A DNA stretch of 47,123 nucleotides from an uncultured Clostridia bacterium (GTDB taxonomy: Bacteria > Bacillota > Clostridia > Oscillospirales > Ruminococcaceae), in the NCBI GenBank assembly GCA_947627465.1, contig CANQWD010000019.1, positions 1 to 47,123 of the forward strand, given 5' to 3'. The notes under the pieces were generated by a model, which worked only from the letters and a program-made list of their open reading frames with translations, was not told where the DNA came from and ran no database searches. Positions 1,414 through 3,418 of this stretch are shown here, piece after piece. The position numbers and the translations under genes are program-made. Within the stretch, counting starts at the first letter, position 1; the number at the start of each line of letters is the position of its first letter.

Positions 1414-1743
1414 TTGTCAAGTTTTTCTTCCTGTTTTAGTCCATTCACATCCACGCTACCATGCCCATGTTCTCTGCTTTCCAATCCTCATCGAATTGTA
1501 ATGACGATATATAACCACTTATTAGAGGAAAGATACACAACGATCGATGCTTACGGAAAACGAGAATTTCATAACATATACGCAAAAAACTGCGAGGAAC
1601 TCTAAGAAAAGTTGGCGGCAATGATAGAGCACAAGGCTTACATCAAGGCAGAGAAAGAACGACTGAAAACGGTGAACGAAACATTATTGAGTGCGTTCAA
1701 TAATTCGACCGCAGTAAACAAAGAAAACAGCCCCGCTCTAAAA
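1414..1743 (+). pseudogene. Broken small ORF, possible mobile-element remnant
   Basis: A 63-codon frame ends in TAA at 1603-1605. The same frame continues straight on without another stop to TAG at 1741-1743, adding a lysine/glutamate-rich helix (EKLAAMIEHKAYIKAEKERL and onward). Read through the TAA, the part from about residue 30 resembles the short basic DNA-binding arm domains of tyrosine recombinases or relaxosome proteins (pattern YGKRE...YAKN.EEL.EKLAAMI). I cannot name it with confidence. The single in-frame stop suggests a decayed gene rather than two genes. A further readable stretch follows at about 1825-1950 without a clear start. The position beside a tRNA with scar repeats fits island debris. 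Confidence 0.4.
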
Positions 1744-2070
1744 TAGGGCGGGTGGGCGTGTCCAAAACGGACCATCCGTCAAAACTGCCGTTTTGACAAA
1801 TTTGAGATGTTCAGACTAAGGGGCGATTTGACTCCGGACTGCGTAAAGGTTGTATTACGCTACTTTTCAAAATCGGTACTCCGTGTTTCACGAGGTACCG
1901 ATATAGGTGAGGATACAGATGAGTCCCCCCATAAATCACTTGTCAAAAATTGAGCCGCATAAAACAAAGAATACGTCGGCACATAAAACCACCGCACTAA
2001 AACGGTGCACCCTTCAAAACTACCGAAATGGAAGCTATAAAGATGAGGTAACAAAATGTTACGGCATATA

Positions 2071-2119
2071 TAAAAATTAAACCGCTCTGCAAGCCTCAGA
2101 TGGCTTAACAAAGCGGTTT
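2071..2119 (-). terminator. Terminator of the tRNA-Pro transcript
   Basis: Downstream of the tRNA on the minus strand lies a long stem with outer arms AAACCGCT/AGCGGTTT, an inner AAGCC/GGCTT, and then AATTTTTAT. It starts within a few bases of the CCA end. Confidence 0.7.
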
Positions 2120-2122
2120 GTG

Positions 2123-2199
2123 TGGTCGAGACGACGTGATTTGAACACGCGACCTCTGCGTCCCGAACGCAGCGCTCTACCAAACTGAGCCACGTCTCG
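2123..2199 (-). tRNA. tRNA-Pro(CGG), CCA end encoded
   Basis: The cloverleaf was read by eye on the minus strand. The acceptor arms are CGAGACG/CGTCTCG with discriminator A and an encoded CCA; the D stem is GCTC/GAGC. The anticodon stem is CTGCG/CGCAG around the loop TTCGGGA, giving anticodon CGG for proline codon CCG. The T arm carries TTCAAAT. No convincing promoter sits directly upstream of this copy. The nearest strong one is at 2597-2625, upstream of two truncated 5' halves, so expression probably depends on readthrough across them. Confidence 0.93.
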
Positions 2200-2224
2200 A
2201 TTATAGAATTTTTTCACCCCTAAT

Positions 2225-2399
2225 TTGGTGTAAGTGGTCAAGTATGTGGTCAAAGAGATTTTTGACCAAAATTTTAAGTTGCCGAAAACGCTGTGACAGT
2301 GTAGTGTCAAAGGAAATATGCGACAAACGGCTCTATAACGCGCTCCAACGGTTCTATGCTCCCGAACGCAGCGCTCTACCAAGCTGAGCCACGCCTCGA
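2225..2399 (-). repeat. Tandem unit 1: spacer plus truncated tRNA-Pro 5' half
   Basis: Positions 2360-2399 repeat the 5' half of tRNA-Pro (acceptor 5' strand, D arm, anticodon stem 5' strand and loop). The match stops right after the anticodon loop (TTCGGGA followed by GCATAG instead of CGCAG). The spacer between this half and the intact tRNA carries two direct GTGGTCAA motifs 12 bp apart (2233, 2245) and an inverted TTTGACC. These resemble arm-type binding sites of tyrosine recombinases. A small hairpin with a CGTTTTC tail also lies in the spacer. I read the unit as an attachment-site scar. Confidence 0.75.
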
Positions 2400-2410
2400 A
2401 ATATGGATTT

Positions 2411-2584
2411 TCCACCGAAGTGGTCAAACATGTGGTCAAATGGATTTTTGACCGAAATTTTAAAGTGCTGAAAACACCGTGACGGTGTAGTGTCAAAGGC
2501 AATGTGCCGCAAACAGCTTTGTAACGCGCTCCGACGGTTCTATGCTCCCGAACGCAGCGCTCTACCAAGCTGAGCCACGCCTCA
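2411..2584 (-). repeat. Tandem unit 2: spacer plus truncated tRNA-Pro 5' half
   Basis: This is a second copy at an exact 186-bp offset from unit 1. The truncated tRNA half is at 2546-2584, and the spacer again has two direct GTGGTCAA motifs and an inverted TTTGACC. The hairpin here is perfect (ACACCG/CGGTGT) and followed by TTTT. The acceptor 5' strand has diverged (GAGGCG instead of GAGACG), so a full tRNA could not be built from it. The unit lies directly downstream of the strong promoter at 2597-2625. Confidence 0.75.
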
Positions 2585-2596
2585 ATAACAGATAAT

Positions 2597-2625
2597 ATTA
2601 TAGCACAAAAGGCGTAAAATGTCAA
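2597..2625 (-). promoter_or_regulatory. Strong promoter reading into the tRNA-half array
   Basis: On the minus strand: perfect TTGACA, 17 bp, perfect TATAAT, ending about 12 nt before the first truncated tRNA half. It is most simply the original tRNA-Pro promoter, now separated from the intact tRNA by about 390 bp. Confidence 0.8.
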
Positions 2626-2663
2626 GGGGTTTTCGGAAAAAAGTTAAAGAAAGGGCACGAGAC

Positions 2664-2692
2664 TTGACAAAAAGGCGGAGGTGTGATATAAT
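2664..2692 (+). promoter_or_regulatory. Perfect consensus promoter with no ORF behind it
   Basis: TTGACA, 17-bp spacer, TATAAT on the plus strand. No convincing coding frame with a ribosome site starts within 480 bp downstream; instead a highly structured stretch begins about 8 nt after the -10 box. It diverges from the tRNA promoter at 2597-2625. Confidence 0.8.
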
Positions 2693-2698
2693 ATGTGT

Positions 2699-2905
2699 AC
2701 ACCAAGCCGTTTTCCGCGCGTTTCATTTCGGATGGAGCGTGAGCGGGGCGGCAAACTGCGCGCCGTATCGGTCAGCGTATCGTCGGTGGAGTTTTAGCGG
2801 GAGCAGCTGTTTCAGCACCCGCCGAAAAGGCGATGTGAGGCGCAATAGCCTTACACCGCATTTATGGGTTCGATTCCCAACCGGCTCAACACCGGTGCTT
2901 GGTTG
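2699..2905 (+). ncRNA. Candidate structured RNA, about 205 nt
   Basis: The predicted start lies at about 2699. ACCAAGC (2701-2707) is perfectly complementary to GCTTGGT (2897-2903), which would close the molecule. Inside are a near-perfect 12-bp hairpin (GCGATGTGAGGC, loop GCAATA, GCCTTACACCGC), a tRNA-T-arm-like hairpin GGG-TTCGATT-CCC near 2870, and ACCGG/CCGGT around 2885. Other GC-rich arms (GCGGG/CCCGC, ATCG/CGAT) lie in the middle. Together with a perfect promoter and no coding frame, this argues for a non-coding RNA. It is not tmRNA, SRP RNA or RNase P RNA by their hallmark sequences. The size and clostridial setting would fit the raiA RNA class, but I could not confirm that. The stem at 2909-2929 lacks a U tract, so the 3' end is uncertain. 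Confidence 0.55.
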
Positions 2906-2969
2906 CAAATGTGAACTGCCAATTCACATCAATGAAATCAAATTCATTATGGAAAAGTGCTCCGTGCCG

Positions 2970-2997
2970 CGCTCATTACGGCAAGCCGTAATGAGCG
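2970..2997. repeat. Perfect 13-bp inverted repeat
   Basis: CGCTCATTACGGC, AA, GCCGTAATGAGCG. It lies in the gene-free stretch between the RNA candidate and the first small gene. There is no T tract, so it is not a standard terminator. The remainder of 2998-3175 shows no gene I can support. Confidence 0.8.
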
Positions 2998-3175
2998 GTA
3001 CCGCCGCCGCCTGTCGGGGGAAGATACCGCGCGGGAACGTTTGCCGCCATTTTCCGAGAGCTTTCGAGCGTCTTTGAAAACCGCGGCAAACCGCCTCGCA
3101 CTCAATCCTACTGCCGCATCGTCGGTATAAGGCGCGGAGCATACGAGACACACGCACTTTGCGCGTTTATTATAT

Positions 3176-3418
3176 ATGATAATTGAGATTGAACATTACA
3201 AAGGCGACATTCGGCTCTGCGACGCGAAATATCCACGTTCAGAGCTTGCCGCGAAATTCGCCGGGATCAAGCGTATTTACGATAAAACGGAAGATAATTT
3301 CGCGGAGTTGTTTTGCAGAATGTACGGTTTTGAAAAGCTTTCCGAAAACGCCGCGAACGCGCTTCCGGACTATGTTTACGACCGTGATACGGGAAAGCTT
3401 TGCACACCCGAATATTGA
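3176..3418 (+). CDS. Small hypothetical protein
   Basis: This 80-residue acidic soluble protein has no recognised family. Codon use (GCG, GAC, CGC) matches the core genes of the window, which supports coding. No clear ribosome site precedes the ATG; only a TATTATATAT stretch does, so the start is uncertain. It is followed 17 nt later by a second small gene with a good AAAGGAG site, and the pair probably forms one transcript leading into the slipin gene. Confidence 0.55.
   Translation: MIIEIEHYKGDIRLCDAKYPRSELAAKFAGIKRIYDKTEDNFAELFCRMYGFEKLSENAANALPDYVYDRDTGKLCTPEY

Follow-up and report, generated by a model that had tools for sequence, protein, structure and literature searches.

The stretch of DNA analyzed here, referred to as the window, comprises the 47,123 nucleotides of contig CANQWD010000019.1 from an uncultured Clostridia bacterium. 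Close to its start is a tRNA-Pro(CGG) gene preceded by broken copies of tRNA-Pro, and this text concerns their probable origin from mobile elements that integrate into the tRNA gene. On the minus strand, a promoter is followed by a tRNA-Pro 5' half, 146 bp of other sequence, a second 5' half, 160 bp and the intact tRNA-Pro(CGG). A first-pass annotation, made from the letters of the window, had described two 5' halves that end at the anticodon loop ahead of an intact tRNA-Pro. This is borne out, with the loops at 2546-2552 and 2360-2366. The features at the locus are as follows.

2597..2625, minus strand: tRNA promoter, TTGACA-17-TATAAT with TG before the -10 element, a 12/12 match; read as that of the original host gene
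2546..2585, minus strand: outer tRNA-Pro 5' half, closing with the crossover core TTCGGGA (2546-2552), from sequence comparison
2400..2545, minus strand: element attachment arm (P'), GCATAGAACCG...TTTGACCACATGTTTGACCACTT..., like the arms that follow TTYGGGA cores without a tRNA half in relatives
2420..2439, plus strand: putative pair of arm-type integrase sites GTGGTCAA (2420-2427 and 2432-2439), with the pattern GACCACANNYTTGACCACTT
2360..2399, minus strand: inner tRNA-Pro 5' half with the core TTCGGGA (2360-2366), probably the 5' part of an earlier tRNA that was split by a second integration
2200..2359, minus strand: second attachment arm (P'), preceding the intact tRNA, from sequence comparison
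2234..2253, plus strand: putative pair of arm-type integrase sites GTGGTCAA (2234-2241 and 2246-2253), from the sequence
2123..2199, minus strand: intact tRNA-Pro(CGG), probably an element-supplied replacement gene, judging by the arm-tRNA linkage in related loci
2079..2119, minus strand: hairpin and T-rich run, likely the terminator of the tRNA transcript, identified by eye and not among the sites listed by the terminator scan
1497..2122, strand not assigned: remnant of an element body adjoining the tRNA, from homology to elements of other genomes
1498..1686, plus strand: decayed C-terminal end of a second integrase with an internal stop (amino acids 415-478 of 483; 64% identity, E 9e-16)

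The two halves are one step of 186 bp apart, as the first-pass annotation had given, whereas 199 bp separate the start of the inner half from that of the intact gene. Over 166 bp, the two units share 89% identity. The paired direct repeats that it had reported in each spacer were located as the GTGGTCAA boxes, spaced 12 bp apart in each gap. A short inverted copy (TTGACC) was read by eye near 2262 and 2448; the repeat finder, with a 12-bp minimum, listed no inverted repeat pair. The perfect promoter was likewise placed correctly. It is located at 2625-2597 and belongs to the outermost half, not to the intact gene. Six promoter-like sites are found in the scanned region 1900-3200, compared to a mean of 1.6 in shuffled sequences.

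The same design is found in other genomes. A search of 61 genomes gave a match in 50, many of them an intact tRNA alone, and among selected matches the order of promoter, units of 5' half and arm, and intact tRNA-Pro recurs for both CGG and UGG genes. The tRNA-Pro(UGG) gene of the window's own genome, on contig C26, shows this order as well. Upstream halves are present in 62 of 106 tRNA-Pro(CGG/UGG) loci, a fraction that is not a prevalence because many loci were fetched by the arm motif, compared to 0 of 106 with shuffled upstream sequence and 1 of 106 with downstream sequence. The 106 loci are all CGG/UGG genes with at least 200 nt upstream among the fetched loci, with identical ones removed. 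The half array in the window is thus more than chance. Among the 62 loci, 50 have one half, 10 have two, one has three and one has four, and the unit length has a median of 194 bp (range 100-439). An upstream-half match was found in 1 of 30 non-Pro tRNA loci, and in none of 11 Pro loci with other anticodons (seven GGG, four AGG).

The arm pattern GACCACANNYTTGACCACTT is present in 24 of 394 genomes of the order, not always in a tRNA-half context: in several the motif has different surroundings, and at least one match is probably fortuitous. It also occurs in at least 119 named-contig stretches. Among the 80 of these that were listed with titles, most are metagenome-assembled Clostridia and Oscillospiraceae, and some in unrelated phyla are likely chance matches. 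In four loci (L079, L081, L087 and L210), arm-like sequence is located beside tRNA-Pro 3' parts resembling GGG genes (loop TTGGGGT), which suggests a sister element type for the third tRNA-Pro.

Relatives contain further types of junction, named here after the attachment (att) sites of integrating elements. In attR-like sites, the left arm (GACCACATATCTGACCATAGACAG...) leads through TTYGGGA into a tRNA-Pro 3' half. In attP-like sites, it leads through TTYGGGA into the right arm, with no tRNA half. A 5' half joined to a right arm has the form of attL, the only side that the window itself preserves. The attP-like sites and the tRNA have only the 7-nt anticodon loop TTYGGGA in common. Seven nucleotides is a typical overlap size for tyrosine recombinases. 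Twenty sites with left arm and core were found and 18 were read; G440 and G441:C18 were dropped as right arm plus tRNA. Twelve of the 18 bear a 3' half and six the right arm. On sequence comparison, the relatives show the anatomy of the junctions and both attachment arms. In G021:C34 (L045, L274), an attR-like core TTTGGGA is joined to a CGG-type 3' half, and the mismatch in the overlap was seemingly tolerated.

Comparison of the locus across relatives revealed elements at the anticodon loop in G150 and MT835887.1. In G150, a genome in a single 2.69-Mb contig, the host 5' half and arm are followed by two integrases and then by the left arm and the host 3' half, over a span of 13,877 bp. In MT835887.1, both junctions are located on one contig, and 13,235 bp separate their cores. 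When the flanks are joined, they give tRNA-Pro(UGG) in G150 and tRNA-Pro(CGG) in MT835887.1, and none of these junctions alone is a tRNA according to ARAGORN. In both, attB is located in a tRNA gene with a short core, and nothing is rebuilt at attL or attR. In G269, the displaced 3' half is found behind the left arm on a different contig, and it completes the host 5' half to tRNA-Pro(UGG). A search for an empty site among the relatives of G150, by the downstream flank, gave its best match in G261, behind a tRNA-Leu.

In 6 of 10 genomes, an orphan 3' half pairs with full complementarity to a 5' half from that genome, compared to 38 of 837 cross-genome combinations. Full complementarity means 5/5 pairs in the anticodon stem and 7/7 in the acceptor stem, with G-U allowed. 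The test covered the 11 of 12 3'-half sites, in 10 genomes, for which a 5' half was listed, and in G150 both halves were shown to be on one contig.

We are highly confident that the two broken halves in the window are stacked attachment-site scars, left by tyrosine-recombinase elements that integrated one after another at the anticodon loop of tRNA-Pro, each element bringing a complete replacement tRNA. The repeated integration at the anticodon loop suggested by the first-pass annotation, with arm-type sites in each spacer, is thus supported. In the proposed mechanism, elements with two tandem integrases would recombine the 7-bp loop TTYGGGA of tRNA-Pro with the same 7 bp in attP, laid out as left arm, TTYGGGA and right arm. 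Integration would split the host gene, and neither junction would restore a tRNA. On one side, the right arm would be joined to the host 5' half with its promoter, both of which would remain outside the element. On the other side, the left arm of the element, often with its own promoter-like site, would be joined to the host 3' half. The element body would be located downstream of the intact tRNA. A complete tRNA-Pro would follow directly behind the right arm, about 150 bp past the crossover. Transcription from the host promoter could then pass across the orphan half and the arm and reach the element tRNA, which RNase P may mature from the long leader. The next element would target the tRNA of the previous one, producing the order half-arm-half-arm-tRNA and adding one unit per integration. 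The window would record two such events, with the body behind the tRNA since shrunk to about 0.6 kb. Catalysis by these integrases, the recombination itself, read-through transcription and processing are what we infer from this arrangement.

The left arms carry a promoter-like site with at least 10 matches in 11 of 17 cases, compared to 1 of 17 when shuffled (one of the 18 was too short). Together with the strong outer promoter and the conserved sequence, these sites would also fit a functional RNA array, in which tRNA-half RNAs with a regulatory role are made from the promoter and the repeats are conserved for this function. However, the only terminator-like sites that the scan lists on the minus strand are past the tRNA, at 2009-1977, and none is within the units. 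The TTTT hairpin of each unit, a possible end of short RNAs in the first-pass annotation, is therefore not supported as a terminator. At gathering thresholds, tRNA is the sole Rfam family matched. In addition, the conserved parts are the arm motifs and the crossover, which are also present without a preceding 5' half. We rejected a regulatory RNA or tRNA-half array because there is no Rfam family beyond tRNA and no terminator-like site on the minus strand of the units, and we consider it highly improbable. A group I intron or split tRNA, considered in view of the attR-like sites with their own promoter-like sites, was set aside because the 7-bp duplicated core, the pairs of arm sites and the integrases fit recombination.

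Our comparison of loci also revealed that the intact tRNA is linked to the arm. Eighteen pairs of loci have arms that share at least 90% identity. In these pairs, mean identity is 79% for the half before the arm, 96% for the 5' part of the tRNA, 96% for its 3' part and 82% for the following 60 nt. Fifty-four of the 62 loci were dissected for this comparison, using the half nearest the tRNA, which in stacks is not that of the host. A tRNA beginning with TCGAGGTGTAGCGAAGGTGGTATCGCG is located behind five different host halves (L096, L198, L208, L211 and L219) among the loci read by eye. The linkage of arm and tRNA across hosts, with exceptions in 2 of the 18 pairs, shows an element that encodes a cognate replacement tRNA of the same isotype. 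The 5' half, which the first-pass annotation had described as the duplicated end, is not supplied by the element. Instead, the host 5' half is stranded, and the whole tRNA gene moves with the arm. In the MT835887.1 element (L293), the tRNA-Pro at 2466-2542 of the reverse complement has the anticodon AGG, the close relative L200 has CGG, and the displaced host gene is CGG. Integration may have changed the decoding set there, or this unverified record may hold an error.

Element bodies are found on the far side of the intact tRNA. Family integrases are located within 7 kb downstream of it in 18 of 24 loci with halves and at least 2.5 kb of sequence, all 18 on the opposite strand, compared to 1 of 46 upstream of the outermost half. 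These positions bear on an alternative in which attP carries only a tRNA 5' half, the intact gene combines an element 5' half with the host 3' half, and the bodies between the halves were deleted. This scheme would account for fragments that are 5' halves with arms between them, and 5' fragments occur in about 4% of Islander tRNA islands (159/3919, in excerpts of PMC4383910). However, the 3' part of the tRNA stays with the element arm while the preceding half varies, and the displaced host 3' halves are located behind the left arm. The gap between the half and the next gene is nearly constant (147-171 bp in 51 of 54 dissected loci), unlike what random deletions would leave, and the integrases are downstream of the intact tRNA. 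We give this scheme, which the relatives already contradict, very little weight. Serial integration with a replacement tRNA also revises the loss of element bodies that was suggested earlier. Their loss from between the halves is not supported, as the stretch there is best read as the attachment arm. Beside the CGG gene of the window, a body does look largely lost, with homology to elements limited to 1497-2122.

The integrases are often two adjacent genes in relatives, and both tandem integrases of G150 contain PF00589 and Phage_int_SAM_3, with catalytic residues judged by eye. The element thus encodes a tyrosine integrase in G150, and the window keeps only a decayed C-terminal piece. This piece derives from the C-terminal extension of the second integrase. 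The extension (L223:15363-16814 and relatives) is about 100 amino acids long and by eye resembles a second arm-binding domain. The proteins searched were a subset of the open reading frames (ORFs) of two elements, covering integrases, MobL relaxase, HTH and restriction-modification proteins. The copy on contig C26 of the window's genome (G000) encodes a MobL relaxase (PF18555, E 1e-27, Pfam), two adjacent PF00589 integrases and an HTH_36 protein. A relaxase and integrases are therefore present in one chromosomal element in the C26 copy. When 7 kb around the tRNA were searched for a C26-like relaxase, just 4 of 24 loci had one, and none was found at this distance in G150.

The two units might instead be one integration scar and its tandem duplicate, copied by slippage or unequal recombination; for the first unit, this reading is compatible with the integration proposed above. 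The 89% identity of the units in the window would fit this origin. G150 likewise has two very similar outer units of another arm type, and in this genome the innermost half and the 5' part of the intact tRNA are identical in sequence. On the other hand, the units in the window diverge by 11%, the acceptor stem of the intact tRNA matches neither half exactly, and the 3' end of the inner arm is 13 nt longer. Successive halves derive from different tRNAs in MT839022.1, as do the third and fourth halves in G150, which favors successive integration over duplication there. We consider duplication unlikely, although one of the two units in the window, which cannot be dated, could be a duplication.

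The position of promoters was examined in the 62 loci with halves. In 37 of 62, the 100 nt preceding the outermost half contain a promoter with at least 10 matches. Such promoters precede the intact tRNA in 10 of 62 loci and occur in 1 of 62 shuffled sequences. They are also found upstream of 21 of 44 tRNA-Pro genes without halves. From these counts, the original host gene is the most likely source of the outer promoter, which would now serve the newcomer tRNA.

A number of observations weigh against serial integration with a replacement tRNA. Four of the 10 genomes gave no full match between 5' and 3' halves. G020 has a 3' half with the same sequence as in the element-type tRNA, and this half fits the outer 5' half only by way of a G-U pair. 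A distal 3' half was found in only 2 of 8 downstream stretches read (5-40 kb). In one of the genomes, G201, the distal 3' half fits the tRNA of the element itself, not the host 5' half, as would be expected after nested integration and loss of a unit. The two exceptional arm-matched pairs (L113/L166 and L108/L162) have different tRNAs, which suggests that arm and tRNA cassette are exchangeable between elements. Two other pairs, L111/L122 and L145/L212, have different flanks, and yet their halves are conserved to the same degree as the remaining parts. The promoter of the outermost half has fewer than 10 of 12 matches in 25 of 62 loci. No downstream integrase was found in 6 of the 24 loci with halves, and 5 of the 8 loci in which no halves were detected do have one; integrase presence thus does not track halves alone. 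Lastly, neither an orphan tRNA-Pro(CGG) 3' half nor a left arm-core site was found in the window's genome, an assembly of 52 contigs in which this contig begins 2.1 kb from the tRNA. The far ends of both events are thus missing.

The remnant of the element body was compared to other genomes. It matches the part of their elements next to the tRNA. Alignments start exactly at 1497 from at least nine distinct places in them, with at least 18 alignments from overlapping loci, and the others, among the matches listed, start at 1502-1549 or later. With homology confined to 1497-2122 and the rest of the body and the CGG 3' halves not found, the locus is read as two integrations followed by decay.

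We also searched for tRNA-Pro(UGG) genes by pattern and ARAGORN, a pattern that would miss unusual tRNAs. In G150, G201, G269 and G000, a single intact tRNA-Pro(UGG) was found in each, and it is located directly behind an arm in all four. The cell may depend on the element tRNA. This points to a broader scenario, which we consider somewhat probable. In a broad set of gut Clostridia, the only tRNA-Pro(UGG), and often the tRNA-Pro(CGG), would be element-derived through repeated replacement and promoter takeover. Loss of the newest tRNA would be lethal, a form of addiction, and the stacks would record the order of invasion and lengthen the leader to several hundred nucleotides.

Similar systems are known; the comparisons below draw on excerpts of the cited papers. 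In the tRNA-dependent lysogeny of actinobacteriophages (Guerrero-Bustamante and Hatfull, 2024; PMC10865867), a tyrosine integrase likewise uses an attB in a tRNA gene, and no tRNA is rebuilt. The common core is about 10 bp there and 7 bp here. Those elements are phages, whereas the elements here have tandem integrases, occur in Clostridia and in some cases encode a MobL relaxase. The Fionnbharth tRNA described in the same paper overlaps another gene and has its own promoter. Here, the tRNA follows the crossover at a distance of about 150 bp, and the host promoter is located upstream of it. Stacks of half-arm units from serial integration are a feature of the loci analyzed here that differs from tRNA-dependent lysogeny as described in PMC10865867. 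Integration of the Lactobacillus johnsonii prophage Lj965 also fails to rebuild the tRNA, and the prophage encodes the cognate (PMC10865867, Discussion). Lj965 is a prophage, and its mention in that paper contains nothing on stacks or promoter capture.

Islander tRNA islands (PMC4383910) resemble the elements here in having a tyrosine integrase, a class with anticodon-centered crossover (2083/3919) and tRNA fragments that mark their ends. In classical islands, the tRNA fragment in attP restores the gene. Here, the attP-like sites hold no such fragment beyond TTYGGGA, the junction is unrestored, and a whole separate gene is supplied. Integrative and mobilizable elements (PMC5704250) are similar in their recombinase-driven chromosomal integration, transfer by mobilization and tandem accretion, and tandem tyrosine recombinases are reported for MTnPi1-3 in that paper. 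The difference is that the target here is split and replaced. In the portions of the open-licence literature consulted, no description was found of stacked 5' halves, promoter capture or an arm-adjacent replacement tRNA.

What is new here is the presence of relaxase-bearing elements in Clostridia, the apparent capture of a host promoter and the stacked scars. With this analysis, tRNA-dependent integration is no longer confined to actinobacteriophages but includes mobilizable-type elements of Clostridia. The lasting scars would make the tRNA locus a readable record of past invasions. The findings suggest how foreign copies could replace a host tRNA gene time after time, and how an element could by simple means become hard to lose. 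'Truncated tRNA' repeats at tRNA promoters can thus be scars and not regulatory RNAs, and island finders that expect a restored gene may overlook such elements.

Several additional observations were made in the element-bearing genomes. On the minus strand of G150:C1 (L223), at about 1861120-1861530, two more stacked halves of the same host tRNA-Pro are found with a different arm (CAAAAAACGTGAGCGC...) in units of about 203 bp, as if a second element family had earlier been at this tRNA-Pro. The G150 element also carries a restriction-modification block (L223:4857-12283), including Mrr, restriction-type proteins, a fusion of Vsr and a C5 methylase, and two more C5 methylases. The block also includes a HATPase protein with an spbK-like part. 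An ORF of the MT835887.1 element (L293:1401-2570) by eye resembles radical-SAM rRNA methyltransferases of the RlmN/Cfr kind. In the window, a second perfect promoter (12/12) is located at 2664-2692 on the plus strand, in the opposite direction. It leads into a sequence at 2860-2900 (plus strand) with a T-loop-like GGGTTCGATTCCCAACC, which has no Rfam or ARAGORN match.
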